Positions 11,296 through 24,105 of a DNA stretch of 64,000 nucleotides are shown here, in pieces. How positions within the stretch are numbered: the stretch's first letter is position 1; every line of letters starts with the position of its first letter. The translations under genes and the position numbers were made by a program. The stretch is from an uncultured Spirochaetaceae bacterium (GTDB lineage Bacteria; Spirochaetota; Spirochaetia; Sphaerochaetales; Sphaerochaetaceae), in assembly GCA_944389075.1 (NCBI GenBank), contig CALXLA010000028.1, positions 1 to 64,000 on the forward strand. Direction: 5' to 3'. Below the pieces are notes generated by a model. It made no database searches, had not been told where the DNA came from, and saw only the letters and a program-made list of their open reading frames with translations.

Positions 11296-11390
11296 GCTTC
11301 TATTGAGGTTTGGCGCAGTTTTAAATCAGTTTCATGAAAAAACTTTCAAATATATCGATACTGTCTTATACTCAGAGCCAGGAGACATAC

Positions 11391-12854
11391 ATGCTGATTA
11401 ATCTCAAGAAGAAACCACAGATCATCAAGAAGAATGCAGAACGCTGCAGAGAAAAGGGAATCAAGCTCCCTACCTTTGCCGAAATGAAGGATCCTTCACT
11501 GATTCCGCAGGATGTAAAAGATAAGCTCAGGAATGTAGGGCTTTGGGATGTGAATCCCCTGAATCTTTACAGGATCAACTGGCACAATGAGCCAAAGGAA
11601 ACAGGAGGTGGATTCGGTCCTGTGAACTTCATCGAGATACCTCGGGAGATAACAGGAACCAAGGCCAGGATAATCGCACTTGCTGGCAAATGGTTCCCTT
11701 GCGGAGTACATAAGGTAGGCGCAACATATGCATGCCTTGCCCCAGCACTTGTGACCGGGAACTTCGATGCAATAGAACAGCAGGCTGTATGGCCATCAAC
11801 AGGAAACTACTGCAGAGGAGGTGCGTACAACAGTGCACTCCTTGGATGTAAGTCAATCGCGATTCTCCCTGAGGATATGTCCCAGGAGCGCTTCAACTGG
11901 CTCAAGACAGTAGCTGGTGAAATCATTGCTACACCGGGATGCGAATCCAATGTAAAGGAAATCTTCGACAAGTGTCATGAGCTTGATGAGGAAAGAGGCG
12001 CACATATCGTCATCTTCAATCAGTTCGAGCAGTTCGAGAATTATCTCTGGCACTATGAAGTGACAGGTTCCGCAATACTTGAAGTGATAAAGTCCCTTGG
12101 GATCAAGGCGGACAGAGTCAGAGGCTATGCATCATCGACAGGTTCCGGCGGAACACTTGCTGCAGGTGATCATCTCAAGGACGTATTCCCGAATATCAAG
12201 ATCGGAGCCGGAGAGGCTCTTCAGTGTCCTACCCTGCTCAGAAACGGATTCGGAGCGCATCGCATTGAGGGTATCGGAGACAAGCATGTCCCATGGATCC
12301 ACAATGTGAAGAACACTGACATGGTTCTCTCAATCGATGACCAGGACTGCATGGATATCTACCGTCTCTTCAACGAGAAGGAAGGCCATGACTACCTGAG
12401 GTCTATCGGTGTGAAGGAAGAGGATATCGCGAATCTCCAGCTTTTCGGTATCTCAGGCATCGGCAACATGCTCTCCGCGATCAAGATGGCAAAGTACTAT
12501 GAGATGGAAGAAGATGATGTTGTCTTCACAATTCTCACTGACAGTTCTGTCATGTACACATCACGCCTTGCGGAGCTGACAGAGCAGCAGGGAGCATTCA
12601 GCGAAATCGAGGCCGCAAAGGTCCATGCCGCGGCGCTCATGCACCAGACAATCGAGAACGCGCTTGAGCTTGGATACTATGACAGGCTCCGCATCCATAA
12701 CCTGAAGTACTACACATGGGTTGAGCAGCAGGGCAAGACCTATGAAGAGCTGAACAGGCAGTGGTACGACAGAGATTACTGGAAAGAGCTTCCGAAGCTC
12801 ACCAAGAAGATCGACAAACTCATAACTGAGTTCAACTCGATGATCCAGAATTGA
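11391..12854 (+). CDS. PLP-dependent enzyme, fold type II (cysteine synthase-like), function unknown
   Basis: A 487-residue protein. The ATG at 11391 is preferred because AGGAG lies at 11380-11384; an in-frame ATG at 11334 has no such site. Fold-II markers are the PLP-lysine context CGVHKVGATY near residue 110, the substrate loop STGNYCRGGAYNSALLG near 140 and the phosphate loop STGSGGTLAAGD near 255. It is far longer than CysK (about 310) and has an N-terminal extension of about 85 residues and a C-terminal extension rich in Tyr and Lys. It is followed by a terminator and then threonine synthase. It probably catalyses a beta- or gamma-elimination or replacement on an amino acid, but the substrate is not known. 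Confidence 0.8.
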   Translation: MLINLKKKPQIIKKNAERCREKGIKLPTFAEMKDPSLIPQDVKDKLRNVGLWDVNPLNLYRINWHNEPKETGGGFGPVNFIEIPREITGTKARIIALAGKWFPCGVHKVGATYACLAPALVTGNFDAIEQQAVWPSTGNYCRGGAYNSALLGCKSIAILPEDMSQERFNWLKTVAGEIIATPGCESNVKEIFDKCHELDEERGAHIVIFNQFEQFENYLWHYEVTGSAILEVIKSLGIKADRVRGYASSTGSGGTLAAGDHLKDVFPNIKIGAGEALQCPTLLRNGFGAHRIEGIGDKHVPWIHNVKNTDMVLSIDDQDCMDIYRLFNEKEGHDYLRSIGVKEEDIANLQLFGISGIGNMLSAIKMAKYYEMEEDDVVFTILTDSSVMYTSRLAELTEQQGAFSEIEAAKVHAAALMHQTIENALELGYYDRLRIHNLKYYTWVEQQGKTYEELNRQWYDRDYWKELPKLTKKIDKLITEFNSMIQN

Positions 12855-12860
12855 TTCACA

Positions 12861-12880
12861 GCCGCCTGCGGGCGGCTTTT
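12861..12880 (+). terminator. Rho-independent terminator
   Basis: GCCGCC-TGCG-GGCGGC followed by TTTT lies just after the stop of the PLP enzyme. The six-pair GC stem is strong. Threonine synthase starts 20 bases further on, so either read-through serves it or the hairpin attenuates it. Confidence 0.75.
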
Positions 12881-12899
12881 CCAGCTTATAGGAGCATTT

Positions 12900-14120
12900 A
12901 TGAGATTCCATTATGTCTGCACAGATTGCGGCAGGGTATTCGAGACAGAGGACCTGATGTATCAGTGTCCTGACTGTTCAAAGAAGAATGACGGAAAGAC
13001 ATTCCCTTATGGGAACCTGAGAGTGGAGCTTTCGGAATCAGTGCTGAAAGCGGCAAGGGAAAAGGAGCATGTGACTGCAGATGATTTCTATCCCTATCCA
13101 TCGGAAGATCCCTCTCTCTATCCTATTTTCACAACACCTCTTATGAAGCCTGAGCGCATAATAGAGCGTCTGCAGCTTCCTAATCTCCGGTTCAAACTGG
13201 ATTCACAGCTGATTTCAGGTTCATTCAAGGACAGGGCAAGCTATGAGGTCGCATTGCAGGCTAAGGCCCTCGGGGAGAAGAAGATCGCGCTTGCATCCAC
13301 AGGCAACGCAGGTGCAGCGATGAGTGCTGTCGGTGCTGCGATGGGTCTTGATATAATACTGTTTGTACCAGAGACCGCTCCTGTAAACAAACTGATGCAG
13401 TCTGTCCTGTATGGAGCGAAGGTCGTTCCCGTAAAAGGAACATATGATGATGCGTTTGCTTTGTCCATTGCCTATACACAGCTCAAAGGGGGCATAAACA
13501 GGAATACAGCTTACAATCCGATGACCATCGAAGGAAAGAAGAGCGTCTCCATAGAGCTTTTCGAGCAGATGGGAAGGAAAGTGCCTGATGCGATCTATGT
13601 ACCTGTCGGCGATGGATGCATAATCGGCGGTGTCGCAAAAGGCTTCGATGACCTGAGGAAAGCGGGGCTCATAGAAAAGGTTCCACGCCTGATTGCATGC
13701 CAGTCCGATGCGTCTGCCGCCATTTCAAACGCAATAGAAAATGATGATTTCAGAGCAATAGAAGCATCAACGAGAGCTGATTCAATATCTGTTGATCTCC
13801 CTGCGAATGGAAGAGCAGCCGTGCGTGCCGTGAAAGCATCAGGAGGATGGGCTGTACGCGTAAGCGATAAGGAAATACTCTCATCGCAGCTTGTACTCAC
13901 AAAGGAAAGCGGAGTGCTTGCGGAACCTGCTGCGGCTGCGGCTTTCGCAGCATTGGAAAAGGACAGAGATCATCTCGTCTCTGTCCTTGGAAAGGAAGCC
14001 TCTATTACTGTCCTCCTGACCGGAACCGGCTTCAAGGACATGAAAGCATTTGACGGGGCAGTCAGCTTGCCAGAGAGCATCGAGAACTCAGTGGAAGCTG
14101 TAAAGGCACTGCCCTTCTGA
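12900..14120 (+). CDS. thrC: Threonine synthase
   Basis: A 406-residue PLP enzyme that converts O-phosphohomoserine to threonine. An N-terminal zinc-ribbon-like segment (C-x2-C at residues 7-10 and C-x2-C near 23-26) precedes the catalytic domain. The PLP lysine is in SGSFKDRAS near residue 103, the substrate loop is STGNAGAAMSAVGAAMG near 138, and VGDGCIIGGVAKGF near 240 is the phosphate-binding glycine loop. AGGAG at about 12890-12894 supports the start. The stop lies one base from the stop of the convergent gene at 14122. No other threonine genes are near. Confidence 0.92.
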   Translation: MRFHYVCTDCGRVFETEDLMYQCPDCSKKNDGKTFPYGNLRVELSESVLKAAREKEHVTADDFYPYPSEDPSLYPIFTTPLMKPERIIERLQLPNLRFKLDSQLISGSFKDRASYEVALQAKALGEKKIALASTGNAGAAMSAVGAAMGLDIILFVPETAPVNKLMQSVLYGAKVVPVKGTYDDAFALSIAYTQLKGGINRNTAYNPMTIEGKKSVSIELFEQMGRKVPDAIYVPVGDGCIIGGVAKGFDDLRKAGLIEKVPRLIACQSDASAAISNAIENDDFRAIEASTRADSISVDLPANGRAAVRAVKASGGWAVRVSDKEILSSQLVLTKESGVLAEPAAAAAFAALEKDRDHLVSVLGKEASITVLLTGTGFKDMKAFDGAVSLPESIENSVEAVKALPF

Positions 14121-14121
14121 A

Positions 14122-15288
14122 TCATTCTGCCTGGATCTGGAAACTCTGGGTCCAGGTATCGCCATCGCGGTCTGTGAATGTGAGCGTCATGTCATGAGTA
14201 CCCGGCTCTGTCACGACAACTCTCAGACCGGTTGCATAGATATCACGTCCAGCGGGAAGGGATGGAACTCTTCCATGGCCTTTCTGAATATCCACACCCT
14301 CTGAATCAGTTGTCAGATCAACGATGCTGTTCCTCATATTCTCAGTACCCGGGTTACTGATCGTGAAGCTGAGATCTATCTGTGTGTTGAGCGGAACTGA
14401 TCCGATATCATAAGGCGATGCCGAGATATCAGCAATCTCGACCTTCTTCCACAGGGCCTCGAAAGAAGCTCCGTTTCCTGAAAGCGTATACTCTGTCTCA
14501 TCTGCAGGGATATATTCGCCATTTGACTTATCGACCCAGCCTGCGAAGATGTACGAGTCATCAGGAGCTGTAAGGGAAGGAACGGTGACGACATCGCCGG
14601 CAGACGTGCCATCGATTACGGTCTCTTCGCCTGTAAGCTTATCGGAGAATACCACTCCTGTCTTCCAGATTGCATAATATGTCTGGCTTGTATAAGGAGC
14701 AGGAATCACCTCGCCTGGCTGATACATGACATCGGAACGTGTCACTCCCCATCCTTCAAGCACACCGGCAAGGGATGTATCTATTCCGATATCCGAAGAT
14801 GATGGGAATGTGATCTCATTACCCGGAGCCACAGATACGCTTCTTGCAAACCTGTAGCTGTAGTTATCCCCTTCCGTAGACCAGTCATATGTCACAGTCG
14901 GGCTATAATATGGACTGTTCGCATAAAGCCACTGAGCCATTTCCTTCTTCTGATCCTCATCCTCGATCTTCAGGATAAGTGATAGCAGGTTATCTGTATC
15001 TTCCTCAGTCATGGTATATGGGGATGCCTTCATTGCCTGAAGGTCCCTCATCACCTGACGTGCTTTTCCGAAATTACCGGCGTCAAGCGCCTTCTCATAG
15101 CTGCGTTCGGCATTCAAATAATCTTTCTGTGCTCTTTCCTGGAGATTATCATAGATATCTATAGCCTTTGACGCATCACCTGAAGCCAATGCATCAGCAA
15201 ACTGACTATACATGTCATCAACGCTTGCAGCAAAGACCATCGTTGCAGAAGCAATGAGAACGATAGCCATCGTCATAAGTTTTCTCAT
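14122..15288 (-). CDS. Secreted protein with InlB/Listeria-Bacteroides-type repeat
   Basis: A 388-residue exported protein. The ATG at 15288 is chosen because GGAGG lies nine bases before it; three codons upstream is a second ATG without proper spacing. A signal peptide (MRKLMTMAIVLIASATMVFAA) is followed by an alpha-helical region (residues about 25-120) with degenerate helical repeats such as SGDASKAIDIYDNL and AGNFGKARQVMRDL, reminiscent of TPR. Residues about 200-285 hold an InlB B-repeat (Flg_new) unit with the typical FAGWVDKSNGEYIPADETEYTLSG pattern. The C-terminal 100 residues look like an immunoglobulin-like beta domain (SFTISNPGTENMRNS). It may be a surface or periplasmic scaffold. 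Function unknown. Confidence 0.7.
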   Translation of the reverse strand: MRKLMTMAIVLIASATMVFAASVDDMYSQFADALASGDASKAIDIYDNLQERAQKDYLNAERSYEKALDAGNFGKARQVMRDLQAMKASPYTMTEEDTDNLLSLILKIEDEDQKKEMAQWLYANSPYYSPTVTYDWSTEGDNYSYRFARSVSVAPGNEITFPSSSDIGIDTSLAGVLEGWGVTRSDVMYQPGEVIPAPYTSQTYYAIWKTGVVFSDKLTGEETVIDGTSAGDVVTVPSLTAPDDSYIFAGWVDKSNGEYIPADETEYTLSGNGASFEALWKKVEIADISASPYDIGSVPLNTQIDLSFTISNPGTENMRNSIVDLTTDSEGVDIQKGHGRVPSLPAGRDIYATGLRVVVTEPGTHDMTLTFTDRDGDTWTQSFQIQAE

Positions 15289-15379
15289 ATCTTTCATCCT
15301 CCATGGCTATTAATTTAAAACAATAAGCATGAAGTGTGCTGGAAGATTTATGTAGAAAAAGTGTATATGAAACCGCAGA

Positions 15380-15754
15380 TCAGCGTATTTTACGATACAA
15401 TCCACCCACGGAGGAACCACCTGAACCGAAAGTGAAAAGAACCTCATTGGAAGAACCCTTTCCAAAGGTATAGGATGTGCTGCCATCTCCTATCGTTATC
15501 ATATAGACATCACCATTGGATTCCTCATGTATGAGATGATGACTATATCTTCCAATATCAAACCAATGTCCATCTGGAGTGTATCCGAATATGTTATATG
15601 GCGTGACTTCTATCCATGCTCTGCCATATCCCCATCTGCCTCTCAGCCAGGAAGGAGTCTCATCAAGGGCAGGATCTACAAACGGATAGAACCCTATATA
15701 GCATGATGAGATGATAAGGATAAATGCAATTGCAGATATGATACGTCTTGCCAT
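15380..15754 (-). CDS. Small putative lipoprotein
   Basis: A 124-residue protein starting MARRIISAIAFILIISSC, a lipoprotein signal with lipobox IISSC, cleaved before Cys18. The mature part is rich in Gly, Ser, Tyr and Trp, with repeated short beta-strand-like segments (TITIGDGSTSYTFG, EVLFTFGSGG). No family is recognised. TATAAT lies six bases before the ATG and there is no clear Shine-Dalgarno, pointing to a leaderless transcript. An in-frame upstream extension to 15991 exists but would read across the divergent gene and is not credible. It is divergent from the lipoprotein gene at 15810. Confidence 0.65.
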   Translation of the reverse strand: MARRIISAIAFILIISSCYIGFYPFVDPALDETPSWLRGRWGYGRAWIEVTPYNIFGYTPDGHWFDIGRYSHHLIHEESNGDVYMITIGDGSTSYTFGKGSSNEVLFTFGSGGSSVGGLYRKIR

Positions 15755-15809: not shown

Positions 15810-16841
15810 ATGGACCTTTCAAAAGCAATGATCATCATCGGTTTTTCCCTTGTGGCTGCCTCATGTGCGACAACAGCTGCAGAAGACGGAATTGCATCCG
15901 GACATATAACAGGATACATCGATGGCAATGCCATCACAGATATCCCATATGATGAAGCTGTCGCAAGCGGCTTTGAATACGGAGACATCATAACACTCTC
16001 AGCAGGAGAGCTTTCGATTGCAATGCCTGTCTGCCATTCGGGGGAAGATGTGGACAGTGGAATGGATTATGCTTTGCTGACTGAAAACGGAATCACTCTT
16101 TCAGTCAATGGCGGAAGTTTTGAGGGAAAACACAACATCGGGGAAGACACGGAGATAACGCTATCGATTTCCGAAAAGGCAGGATATCTTGAGGAATACT
16201 GCCGCAGGAATCTGATCAGATTACCTGAAAGAAGCAGCTACAGCTCAGATGAGGCCTACGCGGACTTCCGCGCATCGATTCCAGGAAAACTCTACAGAAG
16301 CATAAGTCCGATAGAAGGGACTCTTCCGTCCCTCACTGCTGATTCGCTCATAGCCGAATACGGCATAGCCTCCGCAATAAACCTTTCGGATACTGAAGAT
16401 GAGATGGCTGTGAAAGCAGGAAACGGAGTCTCTTACAGCGAGATTGAGAATACAATTGCACTCGGGATGCATGACGATTTCCAACAGAAAGCGAAAGAGG
16501 CAGTAAGATTCATCAACGCACATCAGGCTCCATATCTTATCTTCAGCAATGATCCGGAAGAGACAGCAAGGATGATCGCATTCCTTGAGGCACTTGGCGG
16601 AATGAACATAAAGCTGATCGTACAGGACTATATGAGGACATATATGGACTCATGCGGAGTACAGCCAGGTTCTGAACAGTATCAGGAGATATCTGACGGG
16701 CTTCTGAACTTCTTCATATCAATAAATGGCCGTCCATTCCCATGGAACCAGCTTCAGCTTGCATGCAAAGTCTACGCGGAAACACAACTTGGACTTTCAG
16801 ATAGTGAAATCAGCAGATTCATATCAATCATGGCTTTATGA
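15810..16841 (+). CDS. Lipoprotein with inactive tyrosine-phosphatase-like domain
   Basis: A 343-residue protein with a short lipoprotein signal (MDLSKAMIIIGFSLVAASC). Residues about 30-130 form a beta-rich domain (GHITGYIDGNAITDIPYDEA, YGDIITLSAGE) that resembles a SAM-hydroxide adenosyltransferase-type module seen fused to phosphatases. Residues about 150-340 follow the dual-specificity/tyrosine phosphatase pattern: KLYRSISPIEGTLP, GIASAINLSDTEDE, and a final helix LIVQDYMRTYMD. But where H-C-x5-R is required the protein reads FSNDPEETAR, so the nucleophilic Cys is gone. It is probably a surface pseudo-phosphatase. GATAAT lies six bases before the ATG. Confidence 0.65.
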   Translation: MDLSKAMIIIGFSLVAASCATTAAEDGIASGHITGYIDGNAITDIPYDEAVASGFEYGDIITLSAGELSIAMPVCHSGEDVDSGMDYALLTENGITLSVNGGSFEGKHNIGEDTEITLSISEKAGYLEEYCRRNLIRLPERSSYSSDEAYADFRASIPGKLYRSISPIEGTLPSLTADSLIAEYGIASAINLSDTEDEMAVKAGNGVSYSEIENTIALGMHDDFQQKAKEAVRFINAHQAPYLIFSNDPEETARMIAFLEALGGMNIKLIVQDYMRTYMDSCGVQPGSEQYQEISDGLLNFFISINGRPFPWNQLQLACKVYAETQLGLSDSEISRFISIMAL

Positions 16842-22072: not shown

Positions 22073-22570
22073 ATGCCGATACTTATAGTCTCAGATATAC
22101 ATGGAAGCCATGAGGGCATCAGGCTCGTGAAGGCCGCAGCAGAGCGGCTTAAGCCGGAGAGGATACTTTCCGCAGGCGATCAGTGCCCGGATCCATCAGA
22201 CAAGGCTTTCTTCCTATCACTTACGGCTGTAAGGGGAAACTGTGACAGATTCTATGAATACGATGATCTTCCGTTTCCCATGCAGAGCCTCAGCATCGAT
22301 GCATATGGCAGGACACTGGTCATGACTCATGGAGACAGGCTTTCTGCCGATGATTTCATGCTCTCGCAAGGAGATATATTCGTATCAGGACATACGCATA
22401 TCCCCCATCTTGAAGAAAGGAATGGAATCTATTTCTGCAATCCGGGATCACCATCCCGGCCAAGATCCTCTTCCGGACCTACCGCCGCCCTCCTGGATGA
22501 AAACGGGATTCTTCTTTTATCGCTCCTGAACTTCAGCACCATCTCCAGCCTGAGCTTCTCCGAGCGATAA
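22073..22570 (+). CDS. YfcE/MJ0936 family phosphodiesterase
   Basis: A 165-residue calcineurin-like metallophosphoesterase. The metal motifs are all present: SDIHGSHEG, AGDQCPDP, VRGNCDRFY, MTHGDRLS and VSGHTHIPH. The C-terminal NPGSPSRPRSSSGPTAA is typical of YfcE, a broad phosphodiesterase. TACAAT at 22061-22066 lies six bases before the ATG with no ribosome-binding site, suggesting leaderless initiation. The last 142 bases lie opposite the 3' end of the convergent AOR-like gene. It is slightly shorter than E. coli YfcE (184). Confidence 0.9.
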   Translation: MPILIVSDIHGSHEGIRLVKAAAERLKPERILSAGDQCPDPSDKAFFLSLTAVRGNCDRFYEYDDLPFPMQSLSIDAYGRTLVMTHGDRLSADDFMLSQGDIFVSGHTHIPHLEERNGIYFCNPGSPSRPRSSSGPTAALLDENGILLLSLLNFSTISSLSFSER

Positions 22571-24105
22571 GCCGAAAGGAGCCTTGTATAGGGTACTGTA
22601 CGTCCATCATCAGCAGCATCGAAAAGGAAGGAATCTGGTAATTGCCTTGCTTCTCCTTCCAGTTCATTGAGGATCCTGTAGCCTTCTGAAAGCATCGAAT
22701 AGCTATTCATGCCATAAATAGATGCTGACCAGGAAAGCAACCTGATTGCCATCGGAAACCTATACAGGACTTTGGGAAGATGGCTCCACAAGAGAACCGA
22801 TGCGGAGAATGGAGCATAGCCTTTTGAAAGAAGCGCATATGATATGACCTTCTCATACAGGAAGAATACTGCGGCTGAGCCATAGCCTAATGGCTTGGAT
22901 GGAAGCACTTTCGCGATGAGCGGCTCGTCAAGGCACAGCGATGAGGCCAGAGCCGAAGGATAATCAGCCCTCAGATCTGAAGTTATAGGACGATGATAAC
23001 CATCCTGTACTGCTTCTGGAAATGTACGCAGGCCCTTCGAAAGACTGTTGTATCCCTGTGCGATAATTCTTATAACCCTGATATGATCCTCAAGATTCCC
23101 CTTCTCAGGATGGGGAATCGTATAGTCTTCCTTGCCAGCTGAAAGATATGAGAGCAACGCTCCGAGATATGATGTATCCAGTCCCCAGCTTCTGGCTTCC
23201 CTGGATAGCGCCATAACACTTTCAGGAGAGAAGAAGCCAAGATTCGTTCCAAGCATTATACACTCTGAGTATCCAGGAAGAAGCTTGCCATCGTCTGCCA
23301 TCCTTCCGCATGAGAACAGACAGTCCTGACAGCTTTTCGGGAAGATACCGAACTTATCAGCCATAGCCTTGCCATCAAGGAAATATGCCCTTGGGTCGAA
23401 TCCTGATGAATAGCCATTGCATGGGATCCACCTGAGGCGCAGAGCATCATCAATAATCATCGAAGAACCCTCAAGTCTGGAATCCCTGACAATACGGGAC
23501 TTCTCCAGCTTCCGCATTGTCCTCAGAACAGCTTTGGAATCAGAATACGATTCGCTCCGCGTAAATGACTGTGCCGCTATTCCCTTCAGGTTCTTCTGGC
23601 CGAAAAGATAGCCCAGGCCATCCGATGGTATATCATGCTCAGCAGATTGCAGCGAGGAGAAGACAACTCCATGCTCCCCTGCGGGACCTATCGCGATATA
23701 AGGGTCAGAAGGTGATTTCATAATAGTCGCGGCCCATGCATCGGATGCAAGCTCTGGATTGGTTTCTGTCTCTGCTATGCCGCTTCCTGAGATGTACAGT
23801 CCCGTGAGATGCCGGAATCTGCCAGTGATGACAAGAGCTTCCACGCCAAGCCGCATCAGCGAGTATCCGAATGGAACATTGGAATAGGAAAATGCGATCC
23901 TATCGGTGACAGGAGACCTGTAGACAATGGAAAAGAATGCAGAACCACGATATGCAGCGGCTTCCGGAGAAGGAGATGCAATCACAATGGGATTCTCTTC
24001 CTCATATTCATGGTATAGCTTTATCGCAAGACTGAGAGCATATACGCCATCATTCCGCTCTATCTTCTCAGTCCTGCCACCTAGCTGGACAACAAATACC
24101 GACAC
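22429..24105 (-). CDS. Aldehyde ferredoxin oxidoreductase-like protein (divergent)
   Basis: A 558-residue protein of the tungsten/molybdenum aldehyde oxidoreductase family. The N-terminal domain has YRSPVTDRIAFSYSNVPFGYSLMRLGVEALVITG near residues 65-98 and IGPAGEHGVVF near 140. The [4Fe-4S] motif is SCQDCLFSCGRM (C-x2-C-x3-C) near 270. Family members usually carry R-x-G-R-G-G-x-G before the GSKNLK motif; here the region reads IPSDGLGYLFGQKNLKGIAA, so cofactor-binding residues have changed. The start codon is GTG at 24105 with GAGG one base before it. The last 47 residues are encoded opposite yfcE. It may be a relict or a specialised enzyme. Confidence in family is good, in activity low. Confidence 0.75.
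   Translation of the reverse strand: MSVFVVQLGGRTEKIERNDGVYALSLAIKLYHEYEEENPIVIASPSPEAAAYRGSAFFSIVYRSPVTDRIAFSYSNVPFGYSLMRLGVEALVITGRFRHLTGLYISGSGIAETETNPELASDAWAATIMKSPSDPYIAIGPAGEHGVVFSSLQSAEHDIPSDGLGYLFGQKNLKGIAAQSFTRSESYSDSKAVLRTMRKLEKSRIVRDSRLEGSSMIIDDALRLRWIPCNGYSSGFDPRAYFLDGKAMADKFGIFPKSCQDCLFSCGRMADDGKLLPGYSECIMLGTNLGFFSPESVMALSREARSWGLDTSYLGALLSYLSAGKEDYTIPHPEKGNLEDHIRVIRIIAQGYNSLSKGLRTFPEAVQDGYHRPITSDLRADYPSALASSLCLDEPLIAKVLPSKPLGYGSAAVFFLYEKVISYALLSKGYAPFSASVLLWSHLPKVLYRFPMAIRLLSWSASIYGMNSYSMLSEGYRILNELEGEARQLPDSFLFDAADDGRTVPYTRLLSAYRSEKLRLEMVLKFRSDKRRIPFSSRRAAVGPEEDLGRDGDPGLQK

Follow-up and report, generated by a model that had tools for sequence, protein, structure and literature searches.

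A candidate MptpB-like pseudophosphatase lipoprotein in an uncultured Spirochaetaceae bacterium

Described relatives and layout of the locus

Pseudophosphatases are well studied in animals. In STYX the catalytic Cys is replaced by Gly, and proteins of this type bind phosphorylated substrates, which requires that the loop Arg be kept so that phosphate still binds, while MTMR pseudophosphatases regulate live paralogs by forming mixed complexes. The SAM_HAT_C domain is known from SAM-cleaving enzymes, where it helps to bind the adenosyl or adenine group. Among bacterial enzymes, the closest described systems are the MptpB/LipA-like 'atypical lipid phosphatases' (ALPs; Y_phosphatase3; PDB 1ywf, 8dhi), which the available text of PMC3091653 defines by the P-loop HCXXGKDR[TA]G and describes as consisting of the phosphatase domain only. 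The same text attributes a role in catalysis or in substrate binding to the loop Cys, Lys, Asp and Arg of MptpB, and describes Lys and Asp of the loop as important for the relatives of MptpB, too. Seven bacterial MptpB-like sequences that lack the Cys or the Asp are listed there as probably inactive; they are set aside without study, and none of them is reported in that text as a spirochete lipoprotein or as a carrier of SAM_HAT_C.

The gene considered here, P0001, lies in the window, i.e., the whole stretch of 64,000 nucleotides that was analysed, and encodes a member of the same family that has likewise lost catalytic residues (Table 1). Its translation contains all four stretches quoted in the initial annotation: LYRSISPIEGTLP, GIASAINLSDTEDE, FSNDPEETAR and LIVQDYMRTYMD. 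The N-terminus (MDLSKAMIIIGFSLVAASC) shows, by eye, a lysine, then a hydrophobic stretch and V-A-A-S-C, which resembles a lipobox, and comparable arrangements were seen, again by eye, in several homologs, e.g., SSCATV, TSCLTL and SSCITV. These features suggest export and a lipobox only, and anchoring on the periplasmic side would be as likely as display on the cell surface.

Table 1. Positions in the window of P0001, its parts and its neighbours
Feature	Coordinates	Strand	Basis
P0001, gene of a 343-aa predicted pseudophosphatase lipoprotein	15810..16841	+	intact ORF; homologs known
Lipoprotein-type signal, residues 1-19, lipobox-like VAASC up to Cys19	15810..15866	+	read from translation
SAM_HAT_C-like beta domain (predicted), residues about 28-120	15891..16169	+	structure match 2zbv; Pfam in relatives
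Y_phosphatase3 / PtpB-like domain (predicted), residues about 146-342	16245..16835	+	structure match 1ywf; Pfam in relatives
Degenerate P-loop FSNDPEETAR, residues 245-254, replacing HCxEGKDR(A/T)G	16542..16571	+	alignments
124-aa lipoprotein gene, divergent, 55 bp from P0001 start	15380..15754	-	homologs at locus elsewhere
Exported protein, conserved locus neighbour, CARDB match below cut-off	14122..15297	-	locus comparison, Pfam
Two adjoining PLP-dependent enzyme genes (PALP), syntenic anchor	11334..14120	+	locus comparison, Pfam

The 124-aa lipoprotein encoded divergently from P0001 has no Pfam match. Homologs occupy the same place in the genomes G024, G032 and G025 (BLASTP E 2e-27, 9e-6 and 1e-5, respectively) and adjoin a phosphatase gene that lacks the catalytic residues in the first and a canonical one in the other two; a search with the protein minus its first three residues found it in 2 of the 48 genomes of the genus, to which the pairwise locus comparison adds G032 and G025. 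Promoter and terminator scans gave results at chance level only. Further along the window, positions 22429-24105 on the minus strand encode a divergent protein of the aldehyde ferredoxin oxidoreductase family (AFOR_N E 1e-20, AFOR_C E 3.4e-12).

Fold and catalytic loop

When P0001 is searched alone, Pfam returns sub-threshold matches only (SAM_HAT_C E 0.03, 15.1 bits vs. a cut-off of 25.5) and does not list PF13350 (Y_phosphatase3; gathering score 22.2 bits) even at E 10, NCBIfam gives no match, and the PDB gives no meaningful sequence match. Its relatives score well above the cut-offs. Indeed, L003, a canonical relative (here 'canonical' or 'live' is a label given by the Cys and Arg only), matches Y_phosphatase3 with E 1.1e-19 and 71.8 bits and SAM_HAT_C (PF20257) with E 3e-10 and 40.7 bits against 25.5, and L002, the sister protein from G024, passes the Y_phosphatase3 cut-off with 25.6 vs. 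22.2 bits. Since its own matches are sub-threshold, the assignment of P0001 rests on these relatives together with a structural model. The AlphaFold2 model (pLDDT 91.3, alignment of 53 sequences), which leans on canonical relatives because they make up most of that alignment, superposes with residues 28-119 of its N-terminal domain on 2zbv (VIA Z 16.2, rmsd 1.3, 92 residues aligned) and with residues 146-342 on M. tuberculosis PtpB 1ywf (VIA Z 14.9, rmsd 4.2, 177 aligned). A positional ortholog with a canonical loop, modelled as a control (pLDDT 92.8), gives comparable values (Z 16.1, rmsd 4.0 and 188 aligned residues vs. 1ywf; Z 17.2 vs. 2zbv).

P0001 is thus predicted, from the model and the relatives, to be a SAM_HAT_C-like beta domain followed by an MptpB/LipA-like phosphatase-family domain. 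It has the domain fold of the ALPs by structure and keeps their FR and YRS motifs and their NLxD and DYM stretches, but the P-loop that defines ALPs in the available text of PMC3091653 is absent, and the N-terminal SAM_HAT_C is an addition to what is described there. Conversely, with respect to the SAM hydroxide adenosyltransferases/fluorinases, whose C-terminal domain (PF20257; 2zbv, 1rqp) it resembles, P0001 is without the catalytic N-terminal SAM_HAT domain and has a phosphatase domain attached instead. The initial annotation, which had proposed a dual-specificity-type phosphatase scaffold behind an N-terminal beta domain and had named profile searches and a structural model as checks, is therefore borne out for the scaffold, as the model matches 1ywf rather than an unrelated fold and the relatives give Y_phosphatase3, and for the beta domain, which has the SAM_HAT_C fold (2zbv, rmsd 1.3). 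Its family label needs correcting, as the closest proteins are not classical dual-specificity phosphatases but the MptpB/LipA-like ALPs (HCXXGKDR in the available text of PMC3091653), and the profile search succeeded for the relatives, which exceed the Pfam cut-offs, while P0001 stayed below threshold.

Where most homologs from spirochetes and Firmicutes read HCxEGKDR(A/T)G, P0001 reads FSNDPEETA, so that the loop Cys, Lys, Asp and Arg are all lost and neither Cys nor His occurs there. Among 43 columns that are each kept in at least 90% of the 106 rows retaining the Cys and the Arg (8 in the loop, 35 elsewhere), P0001 keeps none of the 8 loop columns but 27 of the remaining 35 (Fisher p = 9e-5), so that the loss is no chance reading. 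The sister L002 keeps 2/8 and 28/35, respectively (p 0.006), and the canonical neighbour L003 keeps 8/8 and 33/35. The Cys column holds S in P0001 and D in L002, and the Arg column holds Glu in both. No basic residue is present within the loop of P0001; R254 follows it, in the helix. The alignment makes the loop one residue shorter. In the models, both of which lean on alignments dominated by canonical relatives, His263 is the last strand residue of the control and five loop residues (264-268) lead to a helix that starts at Asp269, whereas in P0001 the strand runs through Ser246, two residues (247-248) follow and the helix starts at Pro249.

These details bear on the proposal, also made in the initial annotation, that a phosphorylated ligand or an inositol phosphate is held in the old pocket in the manner of STYX. 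Loss of C-x5-R was read correctly there, with none of the eight conserved loop columns kept, and relatives that keep C-x5-R do exist, positional orthologs included, but binding in the old site is not supported. P0001 resembles STYX and MTMR13 in having a phosphatase fold without catalytic residues and differs in being bacterial, exported, of another family and devoid of the whole loop, Arg included. The STYX-like change of Cys to Gly is seen elsewhere in the family, in a clade (L144/L146/L168, from Treponema- or Spirochaetaceae-titled contigs) that keeps the loop Arg, and such losses of the Cys alone, along with the fold and the conserved charged residues R154, R163, D194 and D273 of the phosphatase domain, which P0001 still has, would suit a phospho-ligand. 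In P0001 and its sister, however, Glu replaces the Arg on which STYX-type binding depends, the Lys and Asp are gone as well, no basic residue remains in the loop and the loop itself is one residue shorter (two modelled residues vs. five). Because the Lys and Arg are gone and a Glu has been gained, it is unlikely that the old phosphate pocket still binds phosphate, and a STYX-like role for P0001 appears quite improbable.

A further idea is that P0001 is still an enzyme whose catalytic residues have migrated or whose fold supports a new chemistry. There is precedent for pseudoenzymes whose residues have moved or that have taken on another activity (as described in the available text of PMC10211241), and R254 lies near the loop; on the other hand, the loop contains neither Cys nor His, and no alternative nucleophile is conserved, given the S of P0001 and the D of its sister at the Cys column. 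We consider retained or new catalysis to be very unlikely. What was found is a homolog of active-type phosphatases that lacks the catalytic residues and is encoded by an intact gene, i.e., a probable pseudophosphatase.

Conversion at one locus and losses across the family

The usual form in the genus is a phosphatase that keeps the Cys and Arg and has an N-terminal SAM_HAT_C domain. Indeed, the 30 matching genomes of the genus yield 35 rows (short fragments such as G043:C54 not counted), of which 32 keep both residues, one is unscorable owing to a broken frame and two are without them, namely those of the window and of G024. The PLP-enzyme genes and the exported-protein neighbour that flank P0001 also flank Cys/Arg-keeping orthologs in G032, G018, G025 and G042, with two GKDR and two GQNR loops, and the same neighbours surround the Cys/Arg-less gene of G024, whose product is 54% identical to P0001. 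In a tree built without the loop columns, P0001 and the G024 protein are sisters (100/100 support), nested in a supported clade of seven rows that also holds loops of the GQNR/GMNR type. Since the two are sisters within that clade, a single loss in the common ancestor of the window species and G024 is the simplest history. Three of the 32 Cys/Arg-keeping rows, L004, L006 and L007, read GQNR or GMNR, without the Lys and Asp of the loop; they belong to the clade of P0001 and may, judging from their loops, be intermediates toward loss, and they may be weak or inactive because they miss the loop Asp, a residue important according to the available text of PMC3091653.

Homologs occur in 65 of the 197 genomes examined, the window's own included; matches were obtained for 30 of the 48 in the genus and 69 of the 139 in the family, and at least 524 relatives were confirmed among at least 597 pattern matches in named genomes of spirochetes and many Firmicutes (80 kept). 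No relative of P0001 was found in viral contigs, and a plasmid match under a TonB receptor was dismissed as a relative, being weak (E 0.8). After exclusion of ORFs above 600 or below 200 aa, 145 rows were reduced to 124 by removal of near-duplicates. For the column analysis four more were dropped, one because its frame is broken and three because they are second phosphatase genes on contigs titled Treponema; this gave the 106 rows that keep both Cys and Arg and 14 that do not. For the tree 101 of the 124 were used (87 with both residues and 14 lacking Cys or Arg), long, fragmentary and peripheral rows having been removed by hand.

On this tree the Cys/Arg label needs seven changes, six of which are forced by well-supported branches. 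Loss of the Cys/Arg thus recurs about six times, a count that is approximate because several Cys/Arg-less rows are long branches of unsure placement (L067, L092, the L070 group and the L088/L091 group, with an uncertain loop alignment in the L070 group). The losses include the Cys-to-Gly clade L144/L146/L168 and Cys-to-Ser changes in L030, L050 and L067. A second and very divergent Cys/Arg-less set (L070, L089, L090, L088 and L091) belongs to another genus of the family. In one further genome (G031), the homolog L076 is split into two overlapping ORFs, as a pseudogene or through an assembly error.

Coexistence of the two forms in one genome is what a regulatory role would call for, with P0001 acting on a live paralog through a mixed complex as MTMR proteins do. 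Canonical copies do accompany Cys/Arg-less members in the genomes of L070 (with L020, in G103), L089 and L090, and L030/L050 coexist with L068 in G088. In the window's own genome (95% complete), however, searches by protein, Pfam and profile gave no other family member, and G024 (84% complete) gives a single match. A complex with an active paralog is thus unlikely for P0001, to the point that we regard this role as the most remote of those considered.

In some relatives, SAM_HAT_C and Y_phosphatase3 are fused to LysM, S-layer homology (SLH), abhydrolase or 5'-nucleotidase domains, and some of these proteins contain two phosphatase modules in tandem (such fusions or modules were noted in L029, L064, L124, L130, L136, L158 and L172). 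These fusions fit an extracytoplasmic site.

Retention, decay and possible role

Both P0001 and L002 are intact, full-length ORFs with a conserved lipobox-like motif, and pN for the pair is 0.31 against a pS of 0.77; a pseudogene with an interrupted or unconstrained frame was accordingly rejected. Since pS is saturated, dN/dS (NG86) is only bracketed, at about 0.16-0.26 for the Cys/Arg-less pair (neighbour dS 1.49 to 2.48, finite for three of five genes) and about 0.14-0.18 for the canonical pair G032-G025 (neighbour dS 1.12 to 1.41, three of four genes). The Cys/Arg-less proteins are 54% identical, with neighbours at 76-94%, and the canonical ones 70%, with neighbours at 75-95%. At such similar neighbour divergence, the lower identity indicates that constraint is weaker than in canonical genes and that decay is possible.

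The main rival explanation is a gene in slow decay, in which catalysis became useless, the loop was the first part to go and the remainder is now eroding with no new function gained. The faster evolution relative to canonical pairs would agree with it, as would the fact that 18 of the 48 genomes in the genus, some of them incomplete, show no match at E <= 0.001, so that the gene looks dispensable. Against decay are the full length of both ORFs, the kept lipobox-like motif, a pN far below the saturated pS and the concentration of changes in the loop. We take slow decay to be a serious but minority possibility and read P0001 as a retained but faster-evolving protein, present in this form in two genomes only.

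Because the whole catalytic loop was lost while the fold was kept, P0001 has probably been retained for a purpose that does not involve catalysis. The best explanation, to which we give a probability of about 0.55, is that P0001 is a retained pseudophosphatase, exported and probably lipid-anchored, with a binding or structural role in place of a catalytic one. In this mechanism, the Cys, Lys, Asp and Arg would have been lost in the ancestor shared with G024, with the two-domain fold and constraint kept, and the protein would now act in a binding or structural capacity in the periplasm or at the outer membrane, where the SAM_HAT_C domain and the reshaped phosphatase surface may bind a ligand or another protein. 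For the latter, the 124-aa lipoprotein encoded divergently is a candidate, although this is a guess. By analogy with its relatives, the SAM_HAT_C domain would be the best candidate for any remaining binding of a small ligand, an idea weakened by the change of N to D in the 'GN' motif of the sister L002. A broader proposal is that exported, SAM_HAT_C-bearing MptpB-like phosphatases repeatedly and independently became non-catalytic binding lipoproteins in spirochetes, with SAM_HAT_C sensing or holding a nucleotide-like ligand outside the cytoplasm; we put it forward tentatively, with the odds well against it.

Inactivity within the family is not in itself a new observation, since the available text of PMC3091653 already listed seven probable ones. 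Among the papers listed, a limited literature search found no bacterial pseudophosphatase named as such, and neither the lipoprotein form with SAM_HAT_C nor conversion in place nor repeated loss was found in it. In closely related gut bacteria, Cys/Arg-keeping and Cys/Arg-less forms share one locus, together with intermediate loops, and thus offer a natural series for asking what role an exported phosphatase plays after catalysis is lost and what purpose SAM_HAT_C serves. If true, repeated conversion in spirochetes would represent a bacterial counterpart of the eukaryotic pseudophosphatases.
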